A stretch of 32,201 nucleotides of DNA. Source: an uncultured Clostridia bacterium. GTDB lineage: Bacteria > Bacillota > Clostridia > Christensenellales > Borkfalkiaceae. Location: contig CANQLW010000011.1 of NCBI GenBank assembly GCA_947624805.1, positions 1-32,201 of the forward strand. Direction: 5' to 3'. Below the pieces are notes generated by a model that had not been told where the DNA came from, searched no databases, and saw only the letters and a program-made list of their open reading frames with translations. A program made the translations under genes and the position numbers. Shown here one piece after another: positions 5,003 to 19,885 of this stretch (position 1 is the first letter of the stretch; the number at the start of each line of letters is the position of its first letter).

Positions 5003-8000
5003 TCAGTCTTTATAAATATAAATGTAAGGCTTTGTTTGATTAGATTTGTAATTCGAAAGGCGAGTCGAATTGAATTGTAGACACCATTGGTCGGTAGCTC
5101 CGAATTGATTTATCGCCATAAACTTCCCACCATTTGTTGCTTGGATATCCCATAACATTTTAGTTGAAATCTCTGTTGTTGAGGCAACAAACGACAAACT
5201 ATTGTTGGATGTAGCAGTCATAGATAAATATTTGCCATCGACTTCAAACAGCCAATATTCCGAATCGCTCGAGCTAACCCTTCCCTTTCTAAGAGTAATT
5301 GCCTTAGCGCCTTTCGGTAATGTCGACGAATTTTCTACGAATTGACCAACGACATCAAGATAATTGCCGTCGCTACTCTTCCCACCATTCACTTGATTGC
5401 TATCATTCACAAATACAATTTGCGCCCCTTCAGCCAAATCTGAAACATCCGTCAATTTCTGCCATGTCTTCCCTTGAGGCTCCCCACCACCTGAGCTTTT
5501 AGCCTTAATAGTAAGCTCAAACGTTTCAGAGTTCTTGATGACATTACCGGCTTTGACCACTGCCTGAAGCTGAACCTTAACGTCATCTGTCTCACTTTGG
5601 GTGATCTGAAGTTCGTTCCCTACAACTCTTGCCGCATCGCCCCCGCTCAAAACCTTCCAGGTTACCTCAACACCGGAAACGGTCGTTTGCGGAAGCTCGA
5701 TGTCGCCTGTAAGTTCTGTGGTCTCAAACTTCAGTTCTTTTAAGGCAGCATCTACCTTGCCCTCATCGGTAATTTCCTTGTAGTGCACTGTCACACTGCT
5801 GATATAGCTCGCACCATTAGCTGTTGTAAATAAGGCGAAGTAGTAGGCACTGGGATTAGAAACCTCCCATGTCACACTATTACCGTCCGTAAATTCTTTC
5901 ACTTCAGGCGTATAATCAGACAAACACTGAGTCGGATTACTTGTCGCGCTTGATTCAATATTATACGGTTGATCTGACACTAAAAGCTCCCAATTCTGAC
6001 TGGTGCCATCCTTTGTTATCGTTACGCTCGAAATCGGTGCAGGCAGTTTCGTAGTGCTCACAATATATGATGGCTGATTGCTTTTTCTATTAAACTGCAT
6101 TTTACTCTTTTCGGTCGCATATAAATACGCAGTCCCGGAAACAGTCTTATCGTCAAGATCAGCTGTCCATTCATACTGATTGTAACCACCTGTTGCGCCG
6201 TCAAAACTATCCTGATCTTTCTGCGAGTTACGTTGGATTGTGAACTCACCCTCGATCGGTCCATTGCTCTGCGCTTCGACGCTGTAGCTCCATGTTTTCC
6301 TTTCGGAAGTTAATTCTCCATGCTTTGCCGTGACGACAAGGGTAAATTCTGCAACTTCGTTAAGCTGAGTAATTACAAGCGTTTGTGTCCCATCATCAGC
6401 TTTTTGAATCTGAGCGACTTCTTTTCCCTGTGCATTCTCAACACTCCAAGTGAGGGTAACGTCCTTAACCGTTGTCTTGGGAAGTACAAATCCCTTATTG
6501 AGCGTAGACTCTGTAGTATAACCCGCACTCGTCATCCAAGCGTCAAGCTCTTCGATGGCAAAATCGTTATAATCCTTATCGGTAAGAACGTGTTCATTCG
6601 AAATTACAACTTCGATCTCTGTAATGTCAACCCTACCACTTTTCGTGTCGCTTGAATGCTTAACGTCAAACGTAACTTTATTCGCGTTTACGGAAATCAC
6701 TTTTCCGGAAGCATACTGCGTACCATCAAGAGACAAGATGCCATTATTACCGTTGTCATAGGTAAACTTGAGAGAAACAATTGTTACGTTAAACCGCGAA
6801 GCATCGATTGTGAGCTTGGCAGAATTGCTTTCATACAAACGCCATTGCAAAACACCGCTGCTACTTTTATAGTATTTTCCGTTATCAGAACCGCTGTTCA
6901 CGCTCATCTCGATATTCATATTATCATCGAGATAAATTTTGGGATCCCCGGAAGCACCAGAGCCGCAATACCTCTGACCTTCCACCCAACCAAACTTTTC
7001 AGAACATTCCGAAACCTTGAAGGTCACAGTCTTGGTCTTCGGGACTTCCTTCTTAATCGTCACCTTGACTGTTTGGGTTGTCTCGGTGCCCACGGCGGAG
7101 ACGGTAAGATCGACGGTGACATCAGACGTCGGGAGCTTCCCAACCTTCAGAACATTATTCTCGACCTTGTAGTCACCCTCGCCGCCTTGCCAAGTGAGTT
7201 CAACACCGTTGAAAGTGGACGGAAGGGTCACATCGCCCACTTCATCAATAGTCTTACCATTGAGCGCCGTTGCAACAGCCTCAAGAGCGGCGTCGGCGCG
7301 CTCCTGAGCTCTTTTGTCGGGCTCATCCGATACGGTCGGCTCGATCGTGCAGACGACCGTAATGGACTTGATCTTAACGGTTCCCGTGTAGCCGAATTCA
7401 ACACTCAATGCCTCAACGGCGAGCGCGGTTCCGCTATGATAGTCTCCCCCCCCGTGAGTGAGGGAGCCGCCTGCATACTCAATGGTGACGGTAATTTTGA
7501 TGACGCCTTTTGTCGAGGCCTCGGCGGCACGGGCGCGGCGGGCGGCCGCGGGGGCGTCCTCCGCCGAGACGGTGAAGGTGTTGGATTTACCGTCGGCAGC
7601 GGTGAGCTGGAGGGACTCGTCTTGATAGGTCGCGCCCTCGGGGAAGGATGCCGTGACGCCGTTGTAGGTATCGATCTCGACCTTGGTGACCTCTTCCCCA
7701 TCCGACCAGCCGTGGAGCGCCGCAGCATCCGCCATGTTCGCCTGTACGGACTCGGCGAGTGCGAACTTGGCATAGAGGGTAAGCGTGCTGCCGCCTGCAA
7801 CTGTGGAGGGGGTGAAAGTAGGATCATCCTGTGTCCAGACGGGGTGTTCTGTGCCGTCTGCGGTCTTATAGTACCAATACAGGAAATTGTGACCCTCTAA
7901 CGTAGGGATTTCCTCGGGTTTATCGAGAGCGTCGCCGTCGTCGACAACCTTCGGCTCTTGCGGCAAGTTCTCTACGCCCTCAACGCCCTCTTCCGCAGCG

Positions 8001-11000
8001 AACGTAACAGTGGTTTGGGCGACTTTACCGTAATTTGCACCGGGCGACCAAGGAGACGGATCGCCGTCATACAGGTATCTGCTATTTCCTTCTTTGATGA
8101 TGATTTGTGTGGAGTATTGCCATTCAGATACATCAAAGTTTTCTTCGCCGAGTGCTATGACGGACGCCCAATTTTTCACCTTTGCATTGAAGTCGGTGTA
8201 CATCGTGTAAGCGGCTCCAACGCTGTTTGCCGTCTGGAACTTACTTCCTTCAACGGGCTTCCCTGCTTTGCCGTCGAGCTCACGGATGTAGAGGTTGTTC
8301 TCTTCGCAAACAAGATCCATATAGAGCGTCTTATCGCCCTTGTTGAGCGTAAAGAGAATGCGCTCTGCATAGCCGCCCGTAAAGACTTCGCCACCCTTGG
8401 TGAATCCCCAGCCCTCACGGACAAACTCTATCGCGTTGCCATTGCCTCTTGCCAACGGAACATTCGGAGCGGAAAAATCTACCTTCGCGTATTCTCTTGT
8501 CTTTCCGTAGTGAACATCATGCAAGTCAATATCCGTCGGATAGATCAAAGCGGACTCATAATAATACTCGGCTCTCTTTTCGTCACTCGGAACAAGCTGA
8601 GCCGCAAGAAGGAACGTATAACTGTCTTTTTTATCAAAAGTACCCTCATTGATTCCTTCGATGATCTTCTTTACGACAACATCATTGATCTTTGACCAAT
8701 ACAGACGTTCTCCACGGACGATTGAATACACCGCAATCGGAGTATCATGCAAGAAATCATGTGCATCCAAATCATCAATGCCTTCGGTATTATAAATCAA
8801 GAGATTTACGCCGCCGCTTTGGTTCGCAGAGTCATTGTATCCTGTGTTATTGAATAACTCCCAAGGATAATTTATGGAGTCTTCTCCGTACTGGCTACCT
8901 ACAAGCGACCAAGTTTGGGTTGTTTTCAGTCTTTCATAGAACGTGACGGTGATGGTGGTGTCGGTGGAGAGCTCGAGTGTGGTGTGGGTCGTGGAAGATT
9001 CGTAAACAACGGGGTCGCTGCCGTCGTCGACGACTGCGACATAACCCTCGGCGATCGTGAGGTTCACGGTCACTGTCTTGCCCTTTTCGCAGGTCGTTGC
9101 GGTGAGTTCCGCCGAGTTGCCGTTGCCCTCTGCGTTATTTACTTTGAGGTCAACCTTCACGGTTTCCTGAGGCGGCTCAACGGTGCCCTTCGTCAACGTG
9201 CCATAGTACCCCTTGATGTTGTCAATCCAGTAGGGATTGCCGGCAAGACGGACATAGAACTTCCCTGTGATGTCTACATTGCTTGTAACATCGACAGCAT
9301 ATTTCAATTCTCCGCTATCGAAGTCATAGACTTCAACCGAGAGCTTCATTGCCTTCTCGGTTCTTACAAATGTCACGACAAAGTGTCCTGTCCACTGGCC
9401 GCCCGTAACATTTCCGAGCGTGAAGCCGTCTCTCGGCTTCACATCATAATGACCGGATTCGTACAGAGAACCCCAACCCGCTTTTTCGCTACTACCTAAA
9501 TCAAATGTGTAGTATTGATTCGCCTCGTCATAGAACTCAGCCCAAACATCGGCAGTGCTTTCGTCGCGGGTCTTATCGTATGTCACCATGACGGCGGACG
9601 ATTCTACCAATTCGATTTCCTTCGTCGGAGCAGCAGTCTCCCATTGAGGATCAGTATCTGTGTTGACAAACGAAGGATCCGGCTCAAGTGCGCCGGTGTA
9701 ACCGTCTGCGAAGTACTTGATTGCACCGCAGATAGAGCATATGTCTTCCACCCAAGCGTGATCGGGAGAAATGGTCGGGAGCGACTTCTTTTCACCGCTC
9801 AGAACCATTTTGCCCGTGAAAGTGGTTGCGTCGGCTGCCAAGCCGAGATAATAGCTTTCGGCGAGGCCTACATGACCTCTGGTCGCAACAAGTGTAAGAA
9901 TTCCTGTGTAGATATACTCAACACCTTCCTTATTGGATGTGAGCGTTGTGGTGATGACGATCTTATCCGATGCCGTGTAATCCACCACGATTGAGTAACT
10001 GGTCTCAACACCCACGAACGCAGTGGTATAGTTAGCCTCGGACGAAGCAACAGGATCTGCGTCTCCAATCTTCAGGTTCGAGGTAAACGTCTCGGCGAGA
10101 CCGAGATCCCCTCTGACCATGCCCAGATTCTCTCGATAGAGCAAGATGCCATCGGCATAGCGGACAAACACGTAGACGGGGTTCTCCTTATTATTTGTAA
10201 GGACAGGCAAGACGCCATTATACCAGTCTGCGGAGCTGCTCGCCGTGCCGGTGTAGGTTGCCGTCTGCCCATAAGAAATCGTAAGATCGCTCATGACTGC
10301 TGTGAACCACCCGTTTCCGGCTGCTTCATATTGCACGTCCGGCAGCTTTTCGACCTTGACAGCGACACAGCCAAAGTTGCTATCCGCCCTATTGACAAGT
10401 GTGTACTTATAGCCGTTAAATTCAACGGATTGGCCGTCCTTCGCTTGATCTGCGAGAAGTTTCAAATCTGCGCCGGGATTAGGATTATTATCGCCTTCCT
10501 TAAAGGTGGCAGTATAAGGTCTGTCATCTTCCGGGAGTTCGTCGAGAACAAATTTGATCGTCCATGTTGTCTCATTAACGATTACTGTCCTCTTTTCGCT
10601 CAAAAAGCTGTCATATCTCGTCCAGCTGTCTTCCCACTCTGTAAGACCGAAGTAGACAGTCGCGAGGATATCCTCAAGAACAGTCGTGGCCTCATAACCC
10701 GAATGAGTTCCCGAGAGAACGAAATAGATGTGGGTTCCGTCCGTCTCAAGCGTTGCGCCTGTGGCTTCAAATGTAGCCTGAGGGGTAGGCGGGATGGCGC
10801 CGGCATTGAAGGAGATCGTGATTTCTGTCGGACCTGTTAACGTGATAGAATAGACCTTGTCTCCTGTCGGATTAAGATTATCGCCATTTACCTTTACAAC
10901 GGCTTCGTATCCTTCATTCGGATTAACAGTAAGTGTAAGGGGCCCTTCGTACGTTCTGCCGCTGATGACGGTATCTCCATTGCCAGCGCCAAGTGTATAT

Positions 11001-14000
11001 GTACCATTGCTCTCACCTTCAACTGTAACCGTAACCTCATAACCTGTTACTTTGTACTCCGTCTTTGCAATGACTTTTCCGTCTATGACCCATTCAAGGG
11101 AAAGATCCTGATGGGAATAGTTCGTTCCATTGACAGAGACGTGAATGTTGATATACCAAGAATTCCAAACGTACTCGGTAACATCGATCGCGGCGTTGCC
11201 GTTGATCTTGACTTTTGCCCCCTGTGCGTCTTGACTCGACTTGAGCAACTTAAAGTTTTCTTCCGAAATATACAGCTGGAAGAATTCACCGTTGTAGAAG
11301 TGCGAATTTTGCAACGCTTCGATGACGACAGGCTCCTGCTCCTCGCCCTGCTTGGTGTAGGTGATCGTGATCGTAAGATTGCTGTTGACGGTGATCGTGT
11401 AGGTCCCGTCTTCGTTCTTTGTAGGCTCCCCGCTCGAAAGGGTTACGGTCGCAGTATAGCCCTCTGCAAGGTGCAACGTAAGTGTGAGGGAAGCATTTGC
11501 GGGGACTTCATTCAAGTCAACTTCCTCGCCCTCACTCTTGATCTCATAGGTGTTTGTGCCCTTATCGCCCTCTTCGGCAACGGTGACCGTGTAAGTCTGA
11601 ACCGTGCTCTTTTCGGTGACGGTGAGCTTCGGCGCTGCTCCTATCTCACCCTCGATAGAGTACTCACAGGGGAATTTGTCATTGCTGATTGTTGTGTTCA
11701 CAGCGTCTTGGAGGTTCAGCTTGTATTCGACGTCGTCGATCTTGAGAGAAAGCTCGACATCGGAAACTGCCGTCGTGAGCACAGTATCCAGAATAAACAT
11801 GAGCCGAATGTTTACATCGCCCTGCGTTTGGTAAAGCGGGACGTCGACAATTCCGTCGCCCACGAGGAAGACATTGGTGGCTGTCAACAAATCCTTATCA
11901 AACCCTTCGGATATCATGTAGAATGCGAGCATTACTACATCCTTCCCATTCGCAGAGGAAGCCTCAAGCGTGACATTGTAAATTTTGTCAACGCTCTTCT
12001 CTGTGGGCTTTACGGAGTATGTGATCGTGATCGTAAGGTTGCTGTTGACGGCGATCGAATAGACCCCTTCGGAGCTATTCGCAGGCTCCCCTTCGGAAAG
12101 GGTCACCTTTGCGGTGTAATCGGGATCGACGTTGAGCGTAAGCGTGAGAATAGTGCCTGCGGGAAGCGGGCTACCTACCACATACGCATCTTGCCCATTC
12201 TTGAGCTCGTAGCTGCTATTGCCTTTTTCGCCGCTTTCTGTTACGTTGACGGTGTAGGTGGTCGGCTTCTCGGTCACGGTGACTTGGAGAACGCTCGCAT
12301 CATCGTAATCGAATTTGAATTCGTTCCCGCCATACACATATGTTTTTGGAGCAGCACGCCCGACTGTGATTGCGAAATCATACGTCTCCGTGCCGAGTTT
12401 CAACTGAGCCTTCGTTGCTCCCTTTCCGAGCAGATCAGACAAAACGGACAGGTCGATGGAGTAATACAACACGGTGGCGCTTGATTTGTCCATAGCCTTG
12501 AATTCATGGGAGTCAATCAAAAGCACAGACCCCTTGAGTTCCGCCTCTGTGTAACCTACCGTTGTAATGTAGGTACTGATCTCTATCGTATTACTGTCTG
12601 CGCCAAGGTCGGAGAATGTATTGTTGTTCATCTGCGTCACGGACTTCTTCTCGAGCGTGACAGTGACGGTGACATTCGCAGTATCAAAGGTGACGGTGAT
12701 GACATTCTCTGCAACATTCTTCTCGGCGCCTTCAACGGTCACTTCCTTTACACAGTAACCGGTGTTCGGCTTGATCGTGATCGTAACGGTGTCGCCGCTG
12801 TGGTAATTCGCTTTCTGATTTTGATACTCGACAGTAGCATTGTCCGCCGTGACGGTAAGGGTATAGGTAATCTCCTTCCACTGTGCGGTGACGGTGACAT
12901 CGGCGGTGACTTGAATGCTTTCTTTCGGCTGTCTGAGTGTCTCATCCGTGCCGACCTTCCAGCCTGTGAACTCATAATTTTGAGCCGCGGTCGGAGCCTC
13001 GGGGAGTTCGACTGAGCTGTTGATGTCAACGGTCTTGCTCTCGGGAGCCTGAGCGTCCTCTTTCGCATGATCGCCGAGCGCATAGGTCACCGTGACCTGC
13101 TCGACCCATTTGGCGGTGAGGGTGACGGTCATATCGTCGGTAAGATGAGCGGTGAGTTCGCCGCCCGCTATGCCGAGCTCGGCGGGGGTGCCGCCCGTCA
13201 CAGTCCAGCCGTCGAAGCGATAGCCTTCACGGGTCGGCGTGCCGCTGACCGTAAAGGTATAAATCTCCCCTTCTGCATTGAAGGCAGGAACGGTATTCGT
13301 CGCTTCTCCCTTTACGCCATTGTCGCCGAGCACATAATTGACGGTAAGCTCTTTGACTGTCCACTTTGCCGTGAAGGTGACGGTGACGTCCTCATTGCCG
13401 AGGTCGATCGTAAGGCCGTCATCGGTATAGGTCTTGCTCTCTTCGCCGACCTTGACATCCCAGCCACCGAAGGTATAACCTGTCTTGGCGGGCGTCGGGA
13501 CGGTGATCGTTGCCTTAGCGTTATTATCGGTCTTATTGACGGTGGCCTGAACGTCTGCGCCCTTGACCGTCGCCGTAACCGTGACTTCCTCCGTCGCGAT
13601 CGAGATCTCGATGTTCGCCGTGCCGACGGTCACGCTGTACTTGCCGTCCTGCACTTCGAGCTTGGTCTCGCCGTTCATGACGGAAATGAGCTTATAACCA
13701 TTATTAACGGTGACGGAGAATGTGACCGTCGCGCCTGTTGCAAAATAGGTGTCCTGAGAATCGAATTGAACTGTTGCGTGCTCGCCCGTTGCGGTGACGG
13801 TGTAGAGCTGATCCCACTGGGCCGTGATGACGACGGTCATCTCATCGCCGAGCGGAACGGTGATCGTGTTCTCGGAGACGGCTACATCTTCCCCGTTGAG
13901 GGTCGCCGTCCAGTTCTTGAAGCTGTGGCCCGTGTAGGTCGGCGTGCCTGTGATCGTGATGATGTAGTACTCGCCGCTGTCGCCCGTCTGAAGCTCGCCT

Positions 14001-15757
14001 GCAGTCGCCGTGACGCCTTCCGTGCTGACGCCTTCCGCCTGTGCGATCGTGACAACGGGGGCCTTGGCCTGCCACTGCGCCGTGATCGTGGTGTCCTCGG
14101 TGATCGTGACGGGCGTCTTGGCAGGAGTGTTTTCGGCTGCGTCGTTGACCTTCCAGCCGAGGAACTCATAACCCGTGCGGGTCGGGGTGTCGGGCAGGGT
14201 GTAGTTATTTTCACCTTCGGTGACTTTTACGGTCTCGCTCTCCGTCTTCCCGTCGGCATAGTTGACCGTGACGTTATAGATATGAGGGACGACCTCTACC
14301 GTGAACGAAACGGTGATATAGCGATAGGTGACGGAAACGTTGTATGTACCCTTTTCGTTGATCTTAACTTCGTCGGAATTGACCGTGTAGCCCTCGGTGA
14401 GGAGCTCGGAGGTGCCGTCTTCATAGTGGGCCGTGACTTTCAGGCCTGCAAGCCCTGCCTCAAGGTCATCGCCGAACTGATAGAGCGAGGTGTAGCCTTC
14501 GAATGTGAGGCCTGTGCCGTCATTTTTCAGATTGACCCAAGCGGTCGGCACGCCTTCGACGTCCTGCCAGTATTTGCCGTATGCTTCGGGTAAATCCGCG
14601 CGATAGTAATAAACAGTAACATTTTCGGGGATTTCGCCGTATTCCGCCATCCAAGCGGCTTCGTTTGCGCCGCGGTAATAGACGGTGACGGTGAGCGCCG
14701 CGATGTTGCCGAGGCTGTTGTGATTTGCGATCCCCGTCGGGAGGACGATGCTCTCAAGCGACGTGCAGCCCTTGAAGGCGTCGGCGCCGAGGGTGAGGAG
14801 CCCGTCGGGCAGAATGATCTGTTCTGCGGTAAGGCCGCTGAATGCCTCGTCCGCGATGACCGTCGTCCCTGCGGCGACCTTATAAGCACCCCCCCCGTTT
14901 TCCGCCGGCAGTGCGACGGGCGCGACGGGCGCTGCGGGAGCGGGTTCTGCTTTGAGCAGGTATTTACCATTATAGAGAGAACGATAATCCCCTTCCACTG
15001 TCCAGTTGTCGGGGTCATTGTAATAAGCCGTGCCCGTGAAGGCGTCTGCACCGACGGAGGTGACGGAATCGGGGATCGTCACATCATCGAGCGCGGAGCA
15101 GCCTTTGAAGGCGTTCTTGCCGATCGTTTCGATGCCGCTCTCAAGCGCAAGCGTATCGAGCGCGGTGCAGTTTTCAAATGCACTCTCGCCGATGACAGCC
15201 GAACCGTTGATCGTGACCTTTTCAAGCGTCGTATTGCCCTTGAACGCATCCTTGGCGATCCTGACATCCTTGCCGTCGATCTCGGCGGGGATGGTGATCT
15301 CGGTGAGCGGGGAACCCTCGACGCCCTTTACGGTGTAGTAGTCGCCTGTCGATTCTTCTTCGACGATCGTGAAGGAAACGTCTTTATGGCAGTAATCGCA
15401 CTTGCCCGTTGACGGATTCACCTTATGAGAGACGCCGTCCGCGGGGATCTCCACGAAAAAGGTCTCGTGGCACTCGGTGCAAGTGTGCATCCCCTGCCCC
15501 GGCATGATACACGTCTGCGGGGTGAGGACAAAAGTCTCGCCGAATGTGTGCTGATGCGGGGTTTCTGTCCCGCCGCCCGAGGGATCTCCGGAACCCTCAT
15601 CCGCGGGAACAGTCGTTCCCGTTCCGCTCGCGCCCGTTTCGAGCGACGCAGAGGATGCGCCGCAGGCGACGCCCGCGAGAGCAAGAAGCAGACACAAGAG
15701 CATGGATGCGATCAGGATCGCGATCTTTTTGCCGTGCGACTTCGAGAAGTGACTCAT
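5003..15757 (-). CDS. Giant modular surface protein (BspA-type LRR, InlB/Flg_new repeats, degenerate Ig-like domains)
   Basis: A 3584-residue exported protein. Residues 1-32 are a signal peptide; Cys32 after AGVA may be lipidated, though Gly at -3 is unusual. A Gly/Ser/Thr linker leads to a CxxC-type segment (about 70-130), BspA-type leucine-rich repeats (160-357; e.g. FKGCSALDDVTIPDSVTSVG) and an Ig-like domain (about 427-490). InlB-type repeats ending in TAQW/TAKW run from about 492 to 960 (GYEFLGWK, GYRFDGW, YEFTGWK), then alternating beta modules to about 1700, two lectin-like beta-sandwich regions (about 1750-2200), another InlB-like repeat (2580-2673), and three degenerate bacterial Ig domains (about 2820, 3060, 3333) alternating with beta modules. 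A separate C-terminal domain spans 3428-3584. No LPXTG, SLH or catalytic motif was seen. A surface adhesin or glycan-binding role is inferred from architecture. AGGAGAG precedes the ATG. Confidence 0.93.
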   Translation of the reverse strand: MSHFSKSHGKKIAILIASMLLCLLLALAGVACGASSASLETGASGTGTTVPADEGSGDPSGGGTETPHQHTFGETFVLTPQTCIMPGQGMHTCTECHETFFVEIPADGVSHKVNPSTGKCDYCHKDVSFTIVEEESTGDYYTVKGVEGSPLTEITIPAEIDGKDVRIAKDAFKGNTTLEKVTINGSAVIGESAFENCTALDTLALESGIETIGKNAFKGCSALDDVTIPDSVTSVGADAFTGTAYYNDPDNWTVEGDYRSLYNGKYLLKAEPAPAAPVAPVALPAENGGGAYKVAAGTTVIADEAFSGLTAEQIILPDGLLTLGADAFKGCTSLESIVLPTGIANHNSLGNIAALTVTVYYRGANEAAWMAEYGEIPENVTVYYYRADLPEAYGKYWQDVEGVPTAWVNLKNDGTGLTFEGYTSLYQFGDDLEAGLAGLKVTAHYEDGTSELLTEGYTVNSDEVKINEKGTYNVSVTYRYITVSFTVEVVPHIYNVTVNYADGKTESETVKVTEGENNYTLPDTPTRTGYEFLGWKVNDAAENTPAKTPVTITEDTTITAQWQAKAPVVTIAQAEGVSTEGVTATAGELQTGDSGEYYIITITGTPTYTGHSFKNWTATLNGEDVAVSENTITVPLGDEMTVVITAQWDQLYTVTATGEHATVQFDSQDTYFATGATVTFSVTVNNGYKLISVMNGETKLEVQDGKYSVTVGTANIEISIATEEVTVTATVKGADVQATVNKTDNNAKATITVPTPAKTGYTFGGWDVKVGEESKTYTDDGLTIDLGNEDVTVTFTAKWTVKELTVNYVLGDNGVKGEATNTVPAFNAEGEIYTFTVSGTPTREGYRFDGWTVTGGTPAELGIAGGELTAHLTDDMTVTLTAKWVEQVTVTYALGDHAKEDAQAPESKTVDINSSVELPEAPTAAQNYEFTGWKVGTDETLRQPKESIQVTADVTVTAQWKEITYTLTVTADNATVEYQNQKANYHSGDTVTITIKPNTGYCVKEVTVEGAEKNVAENVITVTFDTANVTVTVTLEKKSVTQMNNNTFSDLGADSNTIEISTYITTVGYTEAELKGSVLLIDSHEFKAMDKSSATVLYYSIDLSVLSDLLGKGATKAQLKLGTETYDFAITVGRAAPKTYVYGGNEFKFDYDDASVLQVTVTEKPTTYTVNVTESGEKGNSSYELKNGQDAYVVGSPLPAGTILTLTLNVDPDYTAKVTLSEGEPANSSEGVYSIAVNSNLTITITYSVKPTEKSVDKIYNVTLEASSANGKDVVMLAFYMISEGFDKDLLTATNVFLVGDGIVDVPLYQTQGDVNIRLMFILDTVLTTAVSDVELSLKIDDVEYKLNLQDAVNTTISNDKFPCEYSIEGEIGAAPKLTVTEKSTVQTYTVTVAEEGDKGTNTYEIKSEGEEVDLNEVPANASLTLTLHLAEGYTATVTLSSGEPTKNEDGTYTITVNSNLTITITYTKQGEEQEPVVIEALQNSHFYNGEFFQLYISEENFKLLKSSQDAQGAKVKINGNAAIDVTEYVWNSWYINIHVSVNGTNYSHQDLSLEWVIDGKVIAKTEYKVTGYEVTVTVEGESNGTYTLGAGNGDTVISGRTYEGPLTLTVNPNEGYEAVVKVNGDNLNPTGDKVYSITLTGPTEITISFNAGAIPPTPQATFEATGATLETDGTHIYFVLSGTHSGYEATTVLEDILATVYFGLTEWEDSWTRYDSFLSEKRTVIVNETTWTIKFVLDELPEDDRPYTATFKEGDNNPNPGADLKLLADQAKDGQSVEFNGYKYTLVNRADSNFGCVAVKVEKLPDVQYEAAGNGWFTAVMSDLTISYGQTATYTGTASSSADWYNGVLPVLTNNKENPVYVFVRYADGILLYRENLGMVRGDLGLAETFTSNLKIGDADPVASSEANYTTAFVGVETSYSIVVDYTASDKIVITTTLTSNKEGVEYIYTGILTLVATRGHVGLAESYYLGLAADATTFTGKMVLSGEKKSLPTISPDHAWVEDICSICGAIKYFADGYTGALEPDPSFVNTDTDPQWETAAPTKEIELVESSAVMVTYDKTRDESTADVWAEFYDEANQYYTFDLGSSEKAGWGSLYESGHYDVKPRDGFTLGNVTGGQWTGHFVVTFVRTEKAMKLSVEVYDFDSGELKYAVDVTSNVDITGKFYVRLAGNPYWIDNIKGYYGTLTKGTVEPPQETVKVDLKVNNAEGNGNSAELTATTCEKGKTVTVNLTIAEGYVAVVDDGSDPVVYESSTTHTTLELSTDTTITVTFYERLKTTQTWSLVGSQYGEDSINYPWELFNNTGYNDSANQSGGVNLLIYNTEGIDDLDAHDFLHDTPIAVYSIVRGERLYWSKINDVVVKKIIEGINEGTFDKKDSYTFLLAAQLVPSDEKRAEYYYESALIYPTDIDLHDVHYGKTREYAKVDFSAPNVPLARGNGNAIEFVREGWGFTKGGEVFTGGYAERILFTLNKGDKTLYMDLVCEENNLYIRELDGKAGKPVEGSKFQTANSVGAAYTMYTDFNAKVKNWASVIALGEENFDVSEWQYSTQIIIKEGNSRYLYDGDPSPWSPGANYGKVAQTTVTFAAEEGVEGVENLPQEPKVVDDGDALDKPEEIPTLEGHNFLYWYYKTADGTEHPVWTQDDPTFTPSTVAGGSTLTLYAKFALAESVQANMADAAALHGWSDGEEVTKVEIDTYNGVTASFPEGATYQDESLQLTAADGKSNTFTVSAEDAPAAARRARAAEASTKGVIKITVTIEYAGGSLTHGGGDYHSGTALAVEALSVEFGYTGTVKIKSITVVCTIEPTVSDEPDKRAQERADAALEAVATALNGKTIDEVGDVTLPSTFNGVELTWQGGEGDYKVENNVLKVGKLPTSDVTVDLTVSAVGTETTQTVKVTIKKEVPKTKTVTFKVSECSEKFGWVEGQRYCGSGASGDPKIYLDDNMNIEMSVNSGSDNGKYYKSSSGVLQWRLYESNSAKLTIDASRFNVTIVSLKFTYDNGNNGILSLDGTQYASGKVISVNANKVTFDVKHSSDTKSGRVDITEIEVVISNEHVLTDKDYNDFAIEELDAWMTSAGYTTESTLNKGFVLPKTTVKDVTLTWSVENAQGKEVAQIQKADDGTQTLVITQLNEVAEFTLVVTAKHGELTSERKTWSYSVEAQSNGPIEGEFTIQRNSQKDQDSFDGATGGYNQYEWTADLDDKTVSGTAYLYATEKSKMQFNRKSNQPSYIVSTTKLPAPISSVTITKDGTSQNWELLVSDQPYNIESSATSNPTQCLSDYTPEVKEFTDGNSVTWEVSNPSAYYFALFTTANGASYISSVTVHYKEITDEGKVDAALKELKFETTELTGDIELPQTTVSGVEVTWKVLSGGDAARVVGNELQITQSETDDVKVQLQAVVKAGNVIKNSETFELTIKAKSSGGGEPQGKTWQKLTDVSDLAEGAQIVFVNDSNQVNGGKSSDGNYLDVVGQFVENSSTLPKGAKAITLRKGRVSSSDSEYWLFEVDGKYLSMTATSNNSLSFVASTTEISTKMLWDIQATNGGKFMAINQFGATDQWCLQFNSTRLSNYKSNQTKPYIYIYKD
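7446..7453 (-). repeat. G8 homopolymer in the giant surface-protein gene
   Basis: Eight consecutive C on the plus strand (G on the coding strand) encode the glycines of THGGGDYHSG near residue 2770. A slip of one base would frameshift the last fifth of the protein. Confidence 0.7.
11345..12258 (-). repeat. Duplicated about 85-residue module within the giant protein
   Basis: Two copies of a beta-repeat module, coded by about 12258-12010 and 11598-11345, share the pattern TYTV-V-E-G-KG---YE-K, L-AGYTA/DYTAKVTLS-GEP and end in VNSNLTITITY. The duplication is also visible in DNA: both carry 'GTTGCTGTTGACGG' and 'TCCCC(G/T)CTCGAAAGGGT'-like blocks in the same order. A third, more diverged copy ends near 10805 (EITISFNAG). 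Confidence 0.75.
14889..14896 (-). repeat. G8 homopolymer near the 5' part of the giant gene
   Basis: Eight consecutive C on the plus strand encode the glycines of ENGGGAYKV near residue 289, within the leucine-rich repeat region. Slippage here would remove over 90 percent of the protein. Confidence 0.75.
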
Positions 15758-15831
15758 AATTCTCTCCTTTCTTATCTTGAATTAGTCCGTCTCTCCGAAA
15801 AAAGGGTAGACGACCCCATTGATTCGTTATA

Positions 15832-15860
15832 ATTGTACATGATTTCTTCCAAAGTGTCAA
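15832..15860 (-). promoter_or_regulatory. Consensus sigma-A promoter of the giant surface-protein gene
   Basis: On the minus strand TTGACA (15860-15855) and TACAAT (15837-15832) are 17 bases apart. The predicted start near 15825 gives a leader of about 68 bases before the ATG, ending with the AGGAGAG ribosome site. Nearly perfect promoter boxes suggest strong expression unless a regulator acts. Confidence 0.8.
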
Positions 15861-16008
15861 TACCCAAGGAAAAATTCATAGAAAAAAATTATATAATTTT
15901 CGCGGCAGCTGGGTTTAATTTATACTTTCCCGAAAAAAGTCTAAGCGTCGGCGGCGGAACCGAGCGGAAAGAAATCTCGGAAAAAAGAATCGGAGCGGTG
16001 AAAATCGC

Positions 16009-16037
16009 TTTACAACGTGAAGGATTCGTAATATACT
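16009..16037 (+). promoter_or_regulatory. Sigma-A promoter of the VUT transporter / SDR operon
   Basis: TTTACA (16009-16014), 17 bases, then TATACT (16032-16037). The predicted start near 16044 is 6 bases before the structured leader described next, so the RNA element would begin at the 5' end of the transcript. Confidence 0.7.
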
Positions 16038-16043
16038 TGGGAA

Positions 16044-16124
16044 TGTTGCGGGATGTTCCTTGCCAAACCATCCCAGCGGCACGGCATTTTTGCCTGCACG
16101 GACGTGCAATAAAAAACAAGGAGG
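16044..16124 (+). promoter_or_regulatory. Candidate preQ1-like pseudoknot riboswitch leader
   Basis: The leader has stem P1 GGGATG/CATCCC (16050-16055 with 16069-16074), extendable by GC/GC across a bulged A. It closes a 13-base loop, TTCCTTGCCAAAC. Loop bases CCTTG (16058-16062) can pair with CAAGG (16117-16121), which is part of the ribosome site AAGGAGG (16118-16124), forming an H-type pseudoknot. An A-rich strand, AATAAAAAACAAGG, precedes the ribosome site, much as in preQ1-I tails. One or two small hairpins (GGCA/TGCC 16083-16094; TGCAC/GTGCA 16095-16108) sit between P1 and the A-rich strand, as in class II or III topologies. The downstream gene is in the transporter family known to be controlled by preQ1 riboswitches. 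The class is unresolved. Confidence 0.6.
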
Positions 16125-16131
16125 CTTCGGT

Positions 16132-16887
16132 ATGAAGCAAGCGTTTCACAATTTTTTCACGGAGCTCAAAACGCTCCTTTCCTCTGTCCCCCCTCTCACC
16201 TTTGCGCTCTTCCTTCTGAGCGTCTTCACGATGAACCTGCTCGCAAATAAGAGCCTGAACATTCCGCTCGATTGGCTCGCCCTCGACTGCGGGATCGTCG
16301 TCTCGTGGGTCGCCTTTTTGTGTATGGACACGCTGACGAAGCGATTCGGGCCCAAAGCGGCGACGCTCGTCTCCTTCACGGCAATCCTTCTGAACGTGAT
16401 CGCGTGCATCATCCTCTATCTTGCAAGCCTCATCCCGGGCACTTGGGGGGCGTTTTATGACTTCGGAGAAGAATCCGTCATCAACGCGGCGCTCGATTCG
16501 ACGTTCGGCGGGACATGGTATGTACTGCTCGGGAGCACGATCGCCTTTCTCACCTCCGCCGTCATCAATAATTTTGCAAACTGGGGGATCGGGAAGGCGT
16601 TCAAAAAGAATCCGAACGGGTTTCTCGCCTATGCTTGCCGCGTCTATCTCTCGACGGCGGTCGCACAGCTTGCGGATAATCTCATCTTTGCGCTCATCGT
16701 CAGCCATTTCTTCTTCGGATGGTCGCTTTTGCAATGCTTCACCTGCGCCGCGACGGGCATGATCGCAGAGCTTCTCATCGAGGCTGCGTTCTCGCCGCTC
16801 GGGTACAGGATCTCAAAACAATGGGAAAAAGAGGGCGTGGGAGAACAATATCTTTCCCGCTACGGAAAAAAAGAGGAATCGGCATGA
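16132..16887 (+). CDS. VUT-family (queuosine-precursor type) transporter
   Basis: A 251-residue integral membrane protein with about six hydrophobic segments. It resembles the VUT/YhhQ family (COG1738), whose studied members import queuosine precursors such as preQ1 or preQ0. Supporting features are the early NLLANKSLNI segment, the polar DTLTKRFG motif in the second or third helix (compare the conserved D-x-x-T of the family) and a positively charged C-terminus. The start at 16132 has AAGGAGG 7 bases upstream; an upstream in-frame ATG at 16060 falls inside the structured leader and would add a non-membrane extension, so it was rejected. The gene overlaps the next by 4 bases. The preQ1-like leader supports a queuosine-precursor substrate, but that is inference. 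Confidence 0.85.
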   Translation: MKQAFHNFFTELKTLLSSVPPLTFALFLLSVFTMNLLANKSLNIPLDWLALDCGIVVSWVAFLCMDTLTKRFGPKAATLVSFTAILLNVIACIILYLASLIPGTWGAFYDFGEESVINAALDSTFGGTWYVLLGSTIAFLTSAVINNFANWGIGKAFKKNPNGFLAYACRVYLSTAVAQLADNLIFALIVSHFFFGWSLLQCFTCAATGMIAELLIEAAFSPLGYRISKQWEKEGVGEQYLSRYGKKEESA

Positions 16888-17525
16888 ACATCCTCATCAC
16901 GGGAACAAGCAAGGGGATCGGGCAAGCGATCGCAGAAAAATTCCTTGCGGAAGGACATGAAGTCACGGGGGTCGACGTGCTCCCTGCGGGGATCGTACAC
17001 CCCTCCTACCGTCATGTCGTAACGGACATTCTCGGCGGGGAACTCCCGCGGGTCTGTCCCGATATCCTCATCAACAATGCAGGCGTGCAGGACAGCGGGC
17101 GGGACATCGAGATCAATCTTATGGGGACCATCCGCGTGACGGAGTTCTATCTCCCCGCCAAGCCGAAGAGTGTGCTCTTCATCGCCTCGGCGAGCGCCTC
17201 GACGGGGGCGGAATTCCCCGCTTACAGTGCAAGCAAGGGCGGGATCGTCTCGTATATGAAAAACGTCGCCCTCAGGGCGGCGGAATGGGGCGGGATCGCC
17301 AACAGCATCTCTCCCGGGGGCGTCACGACGGAACTCAACCGACACGTCATGGAAGATGACGGGCTGTGGGCGCAGATCATGGCAGAAACGCCCCTGAAGA
17401 AGTGGGCTTCCCCCGAAGAGATCGCGGAGTGGGCATACTTTGTCGCCGCCGTGAACAGGTCGATGACGGCGCAGGATCTTCTCATCGACAACGGCGAGAG
17501 CGCCCGCGCAAAGTTTGTGTGGTGA
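16884..17525 (+). CDS. Short-chain dehydrogenase/reductase (FabG-like)
   Basis: A 213-residue Rossmann-fold oxidoreductase of the classical SDR family. It has the NAD(P)-binding TGTSKGIG at residues 6-13, NNAG at 64-67, a serine-rich catalytic strand (ASASAS, 101-106), the YSASK active-site pair Tyr114/Lys118 and the following SPGGVTTE loop. It is somewhat shorter than the usual 240-250 residues: the segment between the first and third strands is compressed. The substrate cannot be read from sequence; 3-oxoacyl-ACP reductase-like activity is the default family label. It is translationally coupled to the transporter by ATGA overlap, so the leader upstream probably controls both, hinting at a shared but unknown pathway. 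Confidence 0.9.
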   Translation: MNILITGTSKGIGQAIAEKFLAEGHEVTGVDVLPAGIVHPSYRHVVTDILGGELPRVCPDILINNAGVQDSGRDIEINLMGTIRVTEFYLPAKPKSVLFIASASASTGAEFPAYSASKGGIVSYMKNVALRAAEWGGIANSISPGGVTTELNRHVMEDDGLWAQIMAETPLKKWASPEEIAEWAYFVAAVNRSMTAQDLLIDNGESARAKFVW

Positions 17526-17549
17526 CCCCTCCCGCGCCATGCTAAGTCC

Positions 17550-17617
17550 CTTTCTACGGTCATCCTGAACTCCTTTCTACGGTCATTCTGAACGAATGTG
17601 AAGAATCCCCTCAAACG
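17550..17617. repeat. Tandem and dispersed intergenic repeat ('GGTCATYCTGAAC')
   Basis: Two adjacent copies of 'CTTTCTACGGTCATYCTGAAC' (from about 17550 and 17572) run into 'GAATGTGAAGAATCCCCTCA'. The second part recurs almost exactly at 21583-21615 (GAATGTGAAGGATCCCCTCA). It follows the SDR stop closely and has no coding potential. Confidence 0.7.
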
Positions 17618-17631
17618 GAGTCCGAAAAAAA

Positions 17632-17825
17632 GCGCCTCCCTCGGGAGGAGCTGTCGAACGTAGTGAGACTGAGGTGGGGAATTTTCCCCGCCGCATTCTT
17701 GGCTCCCCCTTGAGGGGTGGAGCTGGCGCGCTGTCTTTGCGCGACTGAGGGGGTATCGTATTATTGGCACACCCCTTCCGTCACGGCTACGCCGCGACAC
17801 CCACCCCTCAAGGGGTGGGCAAGGG
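17632..17825. repeat. Cluster of GC-rich palindromic repeat elements
   Basis: Three related blocks lie together: 'CTCCCTCGGGAGGAGCTGTCG...ACTGAGGTGG' (17634-17677), 'GCTCCCCCTTGAGGGGTGGAGCTGGCGCG...GACTGAGGGGG' (17702-17753), and an inverted block around 'CACCCCTCAAGGGGTG' (17800-17818). Each forms a hairpin followed by 'CTG(T/G)CG...GACTGAGG'. They resemble a small non-autonomous or REP-like family. No gene is seen in 17526-17895. Confidence 0.6.
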
Positions 17826-17840
17826 TTGGACTTCGTTCTT

Positions 17841-17873
17841 CAGGATTCTTCGGCTACGCCTCAGAATGACGCG
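17841..17873. repeat. Dispersed intergenic repeat ('GGATTCTTCGG...CTCAGAATGACG')
   Basis: This is a clean copy of the element degenerate at 134-195; read on the other strand it is 'GCGTCATTCTGAGG...CCGAAGAATCC'. It sits 22 bases from the bioY stop. Confidence 0.7.
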
Positions 17874-17895
17874 GAGGGCGAGGGGCGGACTTCCC

Positions 17896-18477
17896 TCAAT
17901 ACGGCCGAAGTGCCTCAAGACGGACGGTGAGGAACGCGGCAAGGGCGGATTTGACGAGATCGGGCACGATGTACGGTACGACACAGAGCATCAGCGCGGC
18001 GCTCACCCCCATCGGATCCGCCGCCCCGCGATTATAGACGAGCAGAAACCATGCCGTCCCAAAGGCATAGCACACGGCAAGCCCGAGAATCATCGCAATA
18101 TAAAACATTCCCATGCGTCCCCATCTGTTTTTGATGGGGATGTTTTTTACGATCGCAGGCAACAGCGCCGCAAAGAGGAACCCGAGGATATATCCGCCCG
18201 TCGCCCCCATGAGCGCAGGCACGCCCGCCTTGAATCCTGCAAACACGGGGATCCCGATTAGCCCCATAAGCAGGTACACGGCAACCGCCGCAGTCCCCCG
18301 CTTCACGCCGTACAGTCCCCCGACGAGCGCGACCGCGAAGGTCTGCAACGTGAAAGGGACCTCCCCGACGGGCAGAGAGATCCATGCACAGACTGTAATA
18401 AGGGCAACACCGAGGGCGACCGCGGGGATTTCCCTCGCTATGCCGCGATACCGCTTTGTTTCAACACTCTTTTTCAT
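17896..18477 (-). CDS. bioY: BioY family biotin transporter substrate-binding (S) component
   Basis: A 193-residue, six-helix membrane protein of the BioY family, the biotin-binding S component of energy-coupling factor transporters. Typical features are the first-helix region with LPVGEVPFTLQTFAVALVGG, the LLMGLIGIPVFAG segment, and MGATGGYILGF, which belongs to the biotin-binding region. No ECF ATPase or EcfT gene is nearby, so it would use a shared ECF module or act alone. I chose the ATG at 18477: the longer reading frame upstream begins with a charged stretch unlike BioY and runs through the promoter. The ATG has no Shine-Dalgarno site but lies exactly 6 bases after a -10 box, predicting a leaderless mRNA. 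No BirA operator was recognised. Confidence 0.95.
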   Translation of the reverse strand: MKKSVETKRYRGIAREIPAVALGVALITVCAWISLPVGEVPFTLQTFAVALVGGLYGVKRGTAAVAVYLLMGLIGIPVFAGFKAGVPALMGATGGYILGFLFAALLPAIVKNIPIKNRWGRMGMFYIAMILGLAVCYAFGTAWFLLVYNRGAADPMGVSAALMLCVVPYIVPDLVKSALAAFLTVRLEALRPY

Positions 18478-18483
18478 GCTTTT

Positions 18484-18512
18484 ATGATACCACATCATTT
18501 TCAAATTTTCAA
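18484..18512 (-). promoter_or_regulatory. Leaderless promoter of bioY
   Basis: On the minus strand TTGAAA (18512-18507), 17 bases, TATCAT (18489-18484), then six bases AAAAGC and the ATG. With -10 at -12 to -7, the first transcribed base would be the A of the start codon. Confidence 0.65.
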
Positions 18513-18532
18513 GCAAAAACTCAAAAGAGGAC

Positions 18533-18572
18533 AAAAAAGCCGCCCCTTCCCTTTTGGAAAGAGGCGGCTTTT
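18533..18572 (-). terminator. Intrinsic terminator after the 433-aa lipoprotein gene
   Basis: On the minus strand AAAAGCCGCC and GGCGGCTTTTTT close a stem that continues with TCTTTCC/GGGAAGG around an AAAA loop and ends in a T6 tract. It starts 11 bases after the stop of the lipoprotein gene and isolates it from bioY. A/T runs on both sides could let it work in either direction. Confidence 0.8.
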
Positions 18573-18583
18573 GATTGTACGGA

Positions 18584-19885
18584 TCAGAGCGTCGGGAGCA
18601 CGACGGCCGTCGAACCGTAATCGTAGAAAATGATCTCATACGTCATGGTCACTTGATATTCCGTCATAGAAACCTCGAGATAGATCCTCTTGAGCTTCCC
18701 GTCCTCAAACTGGACGGTCCGCTTGGTGTAAGTCCGCTGTTCGGTCGCCTTTTCGGCGGTACTCACATAACACTCCCCTTCCTCGTCATAGGTATATTCC
18801 TCAAATGCGCCGAGGCAGGCAAGCTCCTGTGCGGCGAATCCCTGCGGTGCGTTCTGCCCGTATTTCTCCCCGTTTGCATCCGTGGTCTTGTTTTTCTGGC
18901 TGTCGATGTAAATATATTCGTTCCCCGTTTGGGCAAAATATTCCGCCTGCACCAGATTCATATAGGAGTAATCATGGAATATCCCCTGCGCCTTTTGGAT
19001 CCGATGATTCCCGAGGTCCCAAAGATATTCGGTGACCGCCTTTTCGGAGATATCCATATCGCTGTAACCCATGATCACGTCCATCGTGACGTTGGTGTAC
19101 GGGAGGCTTATGTTGTCCGCCCATGCTTCCGCCGTGACGTGCGGATCGCCGCCATTGAGACGGCTCCCCTCTTTCGGAATGGTCACGGCCGTCGTGCCGT
19201 AATCGGAAAAGACGTATCTCAGCCATCTGCCGTCATTGCCTTCCCCGTAAAACTCGGCGAGTTTCCCGTCCTCGATTCTGACCTCGCGCCTGACGAAATA
19301 ATCTTCCCATTGCTCCTTGTCGAGGAACAAACTTTCGGACATGGTACTTTTCCCGACCACGGTCGTCACATATTTCCCCGTTGCCTCGTCATAGGTATAG
19401 TCCGCGAACGGCCCGAGTTCGAAGGGAACGGCTAAAAAGAACTTGTATTCAGTTTCGGCATCCTCGCTGCTCGCCTCTTTTTTCCATGGAGCCGCTTCGT
19501 TTTGACGGCTGAACCGATAGAAAACGCCGTCCGCCAGCTCGAAATATTCATAATTTGTCGGTGAATCGCCGCGTTCCTGATAAATCCGATGATTCGCTGC
19601 GTCGATCTTTCTGGTCTCGGAGTAGATACTTTCTTCGTAACCCTCTCCGCCGTCCGCATACGATCTCGTCGGCCCCGTCAGCGTGAACGTGACATTTGTG
19701 AATTCCAGCTTTGCGGCCTCCTCCCAGACGAGCTCCTCGGGCGTCTTCTGGACGTCGGGATCACCCGCGGGCTCCTTGCTTCCGCTTCCACCGTTGCCTG
19801 TCGGCGTATTCTGTGTCCCGCACGCCGCCATTCCGCAGACAAAAACGCTTGCAAGTGCTATCGCCAACACCCCTGCCTTTTTCAT
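18584..19885 (-). CDS. Predicted lipoprotein with two tandem homologous domains, function unknown
   Basis: A 433-residue exported protein. MKKAGVLAIALASVFVCGMA is a signal peptide and Cys22 a likely lipidation site (MAAC, with Met instead of Leu at -3), followed by a Gly/Ser/Asn linker. The mature part is an internal duplication. Both halves contain in order F/YTNVT, a NHRI motif, a YF segment, F-DYTYDE-TGKYV or FEEYTYDEEGECYV, an ED GKL strand and a closing DYG(T/S)TAV-(I/L)P. I do not recognise the family; it suggests a LolA/LppX-like or ligand-binding beta fold, but that is speculation. The start has AGGAGGAA 4-5 bases upstream; a longer upstream frame was rejected because it precedes the signal peptide. 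The promoter contains a G8 tract (next entry). Confidence 0.88.
   Translation of the reverse strand: MKKAGVLAIALASVFVCGMAACGTQNTPTGNGGSGSKEPAGDPDVQKTPEELVWEEAAKLEFTNVTFTLTGPTRSYADGGEGYEESIYSETRKIDAANHRIYQERGDSPTNYEYFELADGVFYRFSRQNEAAPWKKEASSEDAETEYKFFLAVPFELGPFADYTYDEATGKYVTTVVGKSTMSESLFLDKEQWEDYFVRREVRIEDGKLAEFYGEGNDGRWLRYVFSDYGTTAVTIPKEGSRLNGGDPHVTAEAWADNISLPYTNVTMDVIMGYSDMDISEKAVTEYLWDLGNHRIQKAQGIFHDYSYMNLVQAEYFAQTGNEYIYIDSQKNKTTDANGEKYGQNAPQGFAAQELACLGAFEEYTYDEEGECYVSTAEKATEQRTYTKRTVQFEDGKLKRIYLEVSMTEYQVTMTYEIIFYDYGSTAVVLPTL

Follow-up and report, generated by a model that had tools for sequence, protein, structure and literature searches.

Background

Class I preQ1 riboswitches (preQ1-I) are the closest described relatives of the leader reported here. 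Parts of PMC11625349 and PMC10622847 describe class I structures in which a C reads preQ1, an A of loop L3 contacts it, and the binding pocket has a G-C or A-U pair from helix P2 as its roof. According to passages of PMC11625349, UU beside P1 is a consensus feature of types I and III, type I carries UC before the 3' strand of P1 and a C in the 3' tail, the type II riboswitch of B. subtilis controls transcription, and type III is found almost only in Pseudomonadota. Binding of preQ1 by the type III leader of E. coli yhhQ (PDB 8fza) has been published; in the portions of that description used here, three canonical P2 pairs are formed and the first Shine-Dalgarno adenine contacts preQ1 (PMC10622847). 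As summarized in sections of PMC12519234 and PMC11477304, preQ1 riboswitches are known before yhhQ, queT, qrtT, queL and queK.

Here, we analyzed a 32,201-nt stretch of DNA (the window), which is contig C11 of the genome of an uncultured Clostridia bacterium (1.72 Mb in 112 contigs, 93.1% complete). In the original prediction, a preQ1-like pseudoknot was proposed to hide the ribosome site of a VUT transporter gene, with a topology leaning towards class II or III. Gene context and a salvage-type pathway point to preQ1, while the topology had to be revised. In our reading, the leader is probably (roughly 0.85) a variant of the class I preQ1 riboswitch acting on translation, because of sequence conservation, covariation in P1 and in the inserted hairpins, gene context and the salvage-type queuosine pathway of the genus.

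Layout of the leader and its operon

The features are listed below in window positions. A1 is an alignment of 26 insert-bearing leaders, in which the visibly misaligned L019, L030 and L036 were kept; cores are short leader segments described in the next section.

16009..16037, + strand, sigma-70-type promoter TTTACA-17-TATACT (TTTACA 16009-16014, TATACT 16032-16037)
16044..16049, + strand, 5' strand of the P1 extension, TGTTGC (MFE fold; covariation of helix 1 in A1)
16050..16055, + strand, 5' strand of P1, GGGATG (pairs 3-5 formed in 307/309 cells, with AU/GC/CG/UA exchanges)
16056..16057, + strand, loop L1, UU (sequence; L1 counts in cores)
16058..16062, + strand, 5' strand of P2, CCUUG, putative anti-Shine-Dalgarno (P2 cells 95.4% paired in A1, invariant)
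16063..16068, + strand, loop L2, CCAAAC (AAC ends L2 in 103/103 cores)
16069..16074, + strand, 3' strand of P1, CATCCC (P1 covariation)
16076..16081, + strand, 3' strand of the P1 extension, GCGGCA, after bulged A16075 (MFE fold, A1)
16083..16094, + strand, inserted hairpin P3, GGCA-UUUU-UGCC (MFE fold; helix 3 in A1; missing from compact relatives)
16095..16108, + strand, inserted hairpin P4, UGCAC-GGAC-GUGCA (MFE fold; helix 4 in A1; missing from compact relatives)
16108..16116, + strand, A-rich loop L3, AAUAAAAAA (A columns unchanged across A1; the first A might belong to P4)
16117..16121, + strand, 3' strand of P2, CAAGG, 5' part of the ribosome site (invariant columns in A1)
16118..16124, + strand, Shine-Dalgarno sequence AAGGAGG, 7 nt ahead of the ATG at 16132
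16124..16138, + strand, start-codon hairpin P5, GCUUC-GGUAU-GAAGC (MFE fold; hairpin tests, clade-specific, moderate support)
16132..16887, + strand, VUT family queuosine-precursor transporter gene (PF02592, E 3.6e-22)
16884..17525, + strand, short-chain dehydrogenase/reductase gene (PF13561, E 1.2e-21; PF00106), its ATG overlapping the VUT stop

The hairpin begins directly after the promoter, which has 10/12 matches; positions 15700-18700 contain five promoter-like sites, where shuffled sequence has 1.2 on average. By eye, a similar TTTACA...TATAAT arrangement precedes many relatives. The stem, the loop bases CCTTG, the A-rich strand and CAAGG within AAGGAGG lie where they had originally been placed, and the stem GGGATG/CATCCC proved longer than described, with six further pairs (TGTTGC/GCGGCA) past a one-nucleotide bulge. 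Within its 13-nt loop, UUCCUUGCCAAAC (16056-16068), CCUUG at 16058-16062 is complementary to CAAGG at 16117-16121; hairpins P3 and P4 are followed by AAUAAAAAACAAGGAGG and then by the ATG at 16132. The MFE fold of the leader contains P1, its extension and both inserted hairpins. Folding energy as such is unremarkable (z -0.46, with 56/200 shuffles folding equally well). The leader stands out from chance by its conservation and by covariation, which is seen in P1 and the P1 extension as well as in the inserted hairpins.

As for the genes, the VUT gene scores 26.8 bits against TIGR00697 (queuosine precursor transporter), below the cut-off of 50.95. The dehydrogenase matches family models of a general kind, below cut-off; by eye, it keeps TGxxxGIG, NNAG and YxxxK, which we take to be the short-chain dehydrogenase motifs. 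Convergent with the operon lies a BioY-family transporter gene (PF02632; 17899-18582, - strand). A reading frame of 3584 aa (5003-15757, - strand) has a signal-like start and many repeat-like stretches and, judged by eye, probably encodes a surface protein.

Two kinds of leader before one operon

Searched with the transporter protein, 51 of 103 genus genomes gave matches. After the two weak matches of G032 and a second fragment in G093 were dropped, 50 VUT loci were left, and their upstream DNA was read. Every one of the 50 leaders was of one of two kinds: 37 have the pseudoknot motif, and 13 have a preQ1-I leader that is type-I-like and comes with a terminator-like hairpin. The motif runs GATG or GGTG, UU(nn) or UCA, CCUUG, nn(n)AAC or AAAAC, CATC or CACC, insert, A-run, CAAGGAG. 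Between CATC and CAAGG, 11/37 loci have 9 nt and 26/37 have 41-51 nt, most of the latter loci having a P1 extension and two hairpins. Of 80 VUT loci from related named genomes, 33 of which were tagged as repeats of genus loci, a regular expression picked up the motif in 62, and inspection by eye added L113, whose insert is longer; the type-I-like leader stood at 15 loci (of L129 and L133, just a part was seen), and neither kind was found at L120 and L123. The named records are mostly uncultured Clostridia, many from one 'Lapin' assembly set.

The dehydrogenase gene stands behind VUT at 30/30 genus motif loci with downstream DNA (L020 being cut by the contig end), a count that leaves out L032-L037 and L051, fetched without such DNA. 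The same holds for 13/13 loci under the type-I-like leader, two of them partial.

A hairpin between P1 and the 3' strand of P2 is a criterion for classes II and III, and the window has two there, on which the originally proposed likeness to these classes was based. Nevertheless, it is extremely improbable that the leader is an HLout pseudoknot of class II or III. The hairpin is missing in many relatives, i.e. in 11/37 genus loci and in the best 30/30 loci of the order, which are all compact; the Rfam models of preQ1 class II and class III (RF01054 and RF02680, respectively) gave no match on the window at E <=10; and UU in L1, AAC in L2 and an A-rich L3 are class I features. Since compact relatives, both in the genus and in named genomes, have just about 9-14 nt between CATC and CAAGG, we read the intervening hairpins of the window as an insert in L3 of a class-I-like H-type pseudoknot.

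Conservation and covariation

In A1, 82.3% of cells are paired, compared with 75.5% in shuffles (0/500 as high), and 16/27 pairs show changes on both sides. Slid-strand controls give 35-44% paired cells and 9-13 pairs with both-side changes, a comparison biased towards the A1 structure, as it was drawn from the same sequences. Both-side changes are found in 9/12 pairs of helix 1 (P1 and its extension), in 6/6 of P3 (just 57% paired, because its position varies) and in 1/4 of P4. None of the five P2 pairs shows them; P2 complementarity is kept but invariant, and this helix is hardly able to covary because its 3' strand is the ribosome site.

We also gathered 103 distinct cores by regular expression; their related rows are not independent, and L206 was kept with a wrongly parsed P1. 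Pairs 3-5 of P1 are formed in 307/309 cells, with A-U/G-C, G-C/A-U/U-A and A-U/G-C/C-G/U-A exchanges, and pairs 1-5 in 513/515, against a maximum of 473 in 1000 shuffles. Because the expression itself required CUUG, CAAGG and the two uppermost P1 pairs, these are no test of pairing. AAC before the 3' strand of P1 and the top G-C are present in 103/103 cores (TG/CA was fixed, AAC or ACC allowed, and L195 with CAC is outside this count); both also appear in the columns of A1 and of A4 (for which see the profile below), independently of the expression. The A-rich L3 leading into P2 has invariant A columns in the two alignments. L1 is UU in most cores and UC in the rest, mainly in the GGTG group. 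Whereas the original prediction had looked to covariation in both helices, it is thus seen in P1, and CUUG/CAAG is unchanging within the variant.

Hairpins like P5 occur in relatives directly behind the ribosome site, often with the start codon in or beside the 3' arm. Arm variants include GUCAC/GUGAC (GTG starts), GUCAA/UUGAC (a TTG start), GUCGC/GCGAC and CUUGC/GCAAG. The arms change together across clades, the start codon (ATG, GTG or TTG) included. Among 97 distinct starts, whose rows are related to one another, 77 reach a start-codon hairpin score of >=4, compared with a mean of 44 and a maximum of 55 in 300 shuffles; a hairpin whose 5' arm has two or more G or C is present in 51/97 and absent from 46/97. 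The start-codon hairpin is likely real and clade-specific.

Gene-blind profile searches

A profile of 14 compact leaders (R2) was run blind to genes. L098, L110 and L121 were left out of its seed, their longer L1 having been misaligned by MAFFT (alignments A3 and A4). In the genus, R2 gave 35 matches in 34/103 genomes, 34 of them just upstream of VUT; at E 0.001, it misses 3/37 motif loci. The 35th match (G091), without the CUUG loop and before an alcohol-dehydrogenase-like gene by eye, was rejected as chance.

In the order, 78/396 genomes had matches at E <=0.01. At the best 30 of these loci, the downstream gene was VUT in 30/30 cases, followed by the dehydrogenase or part of it. Twenty further order matches were fetched and the motif was seen in 16, many of them being the named loci again; one (L182) is a queT leader, and the weak matches L190, L191 and L198 look like chance. 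At L164, an intact leader is followed by only ~78 VUT residues adjoining the last 30 dehydrogenase residues, which might be decay or an assembly error. In the class, there were 21 matches in 20/391 genomes: two belong to the genus, 11 we regard as credible, and eight (L207, L209, L213-L218) seem to be chance. Six class matches precede QueT-like genes (the five scanned all matched PF06177; L212 was assigned by eye) and five precede a radical-SAM-like gene (L200, L203, L204, L205 and L219, with L203 cut after 7 codons). Two of these five genes were scanned, those of L200 and L204, and the archaeosine protein model TIGR01210 was their sole match, a weak one; given what is known to follow preQ1 riboswitches, the radical-SAM-like gene could be queL. 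The short stretches read behind the queT loci showed no dehydrogenase. A phylum-wide search with an exact pattern was negative in 398 genomes; the pattern allows <=33 nt from CATC to AAAACAAGG, so it cannot match the window itself.

The L182 leader, found by the order search, reads AGUGG-UUUCU-CUAG-CAAAC-CCACU-A-run-CUAGGAGG. It scores 31.6 bits (E 3.8e-5) with RF00522, the class I model, and the gene behind it is queT (E 9.3e-35). With the window it shares P1, a U-rich L1, CU.G, ..AAC, P1', the A-run and C..GGAGG, but its P2 is CUAG/CUAG instead of CUUG/CAAG, changed and still complementary. This single locus, with the same layout and a different P2, links the variant to ordinary class I.

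It might be argued that we are dealing with a plain structured ribosome site, i.e. a hairpin plus loop-Shine-Dalgarno pairing, which is ligand-free or senses temperature or a protein. P2 covariation cannot be demonstrated within the variant, and P5 is compatible with simple translational tuning. Still, we hold this to be very unlikely, as the invariant AAC before P1 and the A-run before CAAGG exceed what pairing needs, the credible R2 matches sit at queuosine-salvage transporters or the radical-SAM-like gene, and the invariant positions correspond to class I preQ1 contacts described in parts of PMC11625349 and PMC10622847.

Rfam scores

RF00522 gave 13.6 bits on the window leader, for the tail only, with a gathering score of 39; of the Rfam models named in the original prediction, class I thus responds in part, and classes II and III do not. 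Relatives also stay below the gathering score: L010 has 23.7 bits, six out of a set of 15 have 22.9-26.6 bits, and nine of the 15 give no match at E <=2. Over the genus, 2/103 genomes had RF00522 matches at E <=0.01, none above the gathering score. A match of the window to the FTHFS RNA (14.7 bits, gathering score 72.6) was rejected as chance. The leader of yhhQ in E. coli MG1655 (L055, 1080-1240) has no match in Rfam release 15 at E <=10 either, and type III apparently lies outside RF00522. A low RF00522 score is therefore no strong argument against class I membership.

Comparison with the types of class I

Several features of the window are shared with type III. Following the parts of PMC10622847 on E. 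coli yhhQ, both have UU after the 5' strand of P1 and AC before its 3' strand. They also share AAGG paired canonically in P2 (for the window, as predicted), a variable linker at the start of L3 and a downstream gene of the same transporter family. The E. coli loop, however, is shorter and pyrimidine-rich (UUCCCUCAC as parsed), whereas the window loop holds a G, and L2 of the variant cores, with 5-7 nt, ends in AAC. Unlike in E. coli yhhQ, a G-C pair could form below AAGG in the P2 of the window, and the A in contact with preQ1 would be located ahead of the C. In distribution, type III of Pseudomonadota differs from this variant of uncultured Clostridia.

Type II (B. subtilis, T. tengcongensis), whose consensus was compared on this point, has the same AC before the 3' strand of P1. 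The T. tengcongensis tail reads ...AAAACAAGG. It is A-rich and ends in a C pairing with a loop G (G11-C30, according to a section of PMC10622847), as in the window. In the published part used here, two of the four P2 steps of T. tengcongensis are canonical and two Shine-Dalgarno bases are buried, whereas in the window all of AAGG can pair. With type I (two-ligand; C. antarcticum), the window shares UU after P1 and probably the H-type fold, but the type I signature is absent from it: AAC stands before P1, and the A-run, unbroken save for one U, is without C. C16068 is expected to be the base that confers specificity for preQ1, and an A stands before it as it does in types II and III.

No such variant was described at title and abstract level in the literature searched; the McCown 2014 survey is outside that scope, and some of its sequences may be of the same kind. 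By current Rfam scoring the variant would go unannotated, and it looks like a new form of a known switch family.

Queuosine pathway of the genus

Of the 103 genus genomes, 99 have TGT, 98 QueA and 99 QueH, while QueF was found in 0/91. The QueC model responded in 94 genomes, and in 88 the score exceeded the model cut-off, although even the strongest match was weak (E 1.1e-7, 31.5 bits). We assigned six matches to families, including the strongest and the one in the window genome; five turned out to be ThiI and one an NAD synthase, far stronger in those families than as QueC. In the fragmented assembly of the window itself, TGT is at the start of contig C46 (336-1394) and QueA was not found, which is taken as a gap. 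With TGT, QueA and QueH present, QueF absent and the six QueC matches misassigned, the genus is taken to lack known enzymes for making preQ0 or for converting it to preQ1, and therefore to import preQ1 or a later precursor.

This bears on the ligand. The same fold and genes would be expected if the natural ligand were preQ0, queuine or another guanine-like base: the VUT/YhhQ family carries preQ0 too (a passage of PMC10622847), one known salvage route takes up queuine and then uses QueL (a passage of PMC11130926), the motif precedes a radical-SAM-like gene at five class-level loci, and the conserved C would accept any base with a guanine-like face. Such a ligand appears unlikely to us, since imported preQ0 would be useless by known enzymes where QueF is lacking, almost all genus genomes have TGT and QueA and hence the route from preQ1, and both the sister leaders and L182 resemble preQ1-I. 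We thus favour preQ1, because of the VUT, queT-like and radical-SAM-like gene context and the salvage-type pathway.

Sister leaders and exchange of leader kinds

The 13 sister loci (L038-L050) have AGACAG-UUCGnnACCAUC-CUGUCU, an A-rich tail that usually reads AAACAAAACUAUGG, and a terminator-like hairpin with a T-run; their transporters are 56-66% identical to that of the window. UU, UC before the 3' strand of P1 and mostly a C in the A-run all fit type I as described in parts of PMC11625349. None of the 13 reaches the RF00522 gathering score (L039, the one scored, has 21.6 bits, E 0.016). Type-I-like leaders were also observed at L127, L129, L133, L136-L144 and L146-L148, and that of L138 has an insert between P1 and the tail, too.

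An unrooted transporter tree was built from 119 of 121 proteins, L129 and L152 being left out for unclear leaders; rows with a short protein match or a stop were also dropped. Compact and insert-bearing forms were split at 14 nt by the measure of the script. The 26 type-I-like leaders form one group (1 change, support 91/86). The compact and the insert-bearing forms need 6 changes each, of which at least 4 and at least 3, respectively, are forced by well supported branches, and the insert-bearing leader of the window adjoins eight compact ones (92/85). The same operon changed its leader kind at least once, in a direction that the unrooted tree does not give. The insert was gained or lost repeatedly and is therefore unlikely to be essential to the switch.

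Proposed mechanism and significance

The following model assumes preQ1 as the ligand. P1 would form once transcribed, its loop presenting UU, CCUUG and AAC. At high preQ1 levels, the ligand would occupy a site atop P1, where C16068 pairs with it and the final A of L3 makes contact. Bound preQ1 would stabilise P2 (CCUUG:CAAGG), burying AAGG of the ribosome site; with P2 closed, the transporter would be little translated, and the overlapping dehydrogenase likewise, by coupling. When preQ1 is scarce, P2 would open and the importer would be made. The P1 extension and the two hairpins are probably an accessory insert at the start of L3, present in a single part of the transporter tree, with several losses or gains. 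We infer the identity and contacts of the ligand, the direction of control and the coupling of the dehydrogenase, the last of these because its gene overlaps VUT.

More tentatively, the leaders may constitute a fourth sequence type of class I in uncultured gut Clostridia, with P2 as a full-length Shine-Dalgarno trap and a multi-helix insert tolerated in L3, and the dehydrogenase may at the same time be an unrecognised enzyme of queuosine salvage; that both hold together is possible, though we would not count on it. If the leader is a class I variant, as the main reading has it, the best-studied small riboswitch family would extend into a large uncultured group. One orthologous operon, placed either under a ribosome-site-trapping form or under a terminator-type leader, would offer a natural comparison, and the conserved dehydrogenase beside the importer would be a candidate for a step in queuosine salvage.
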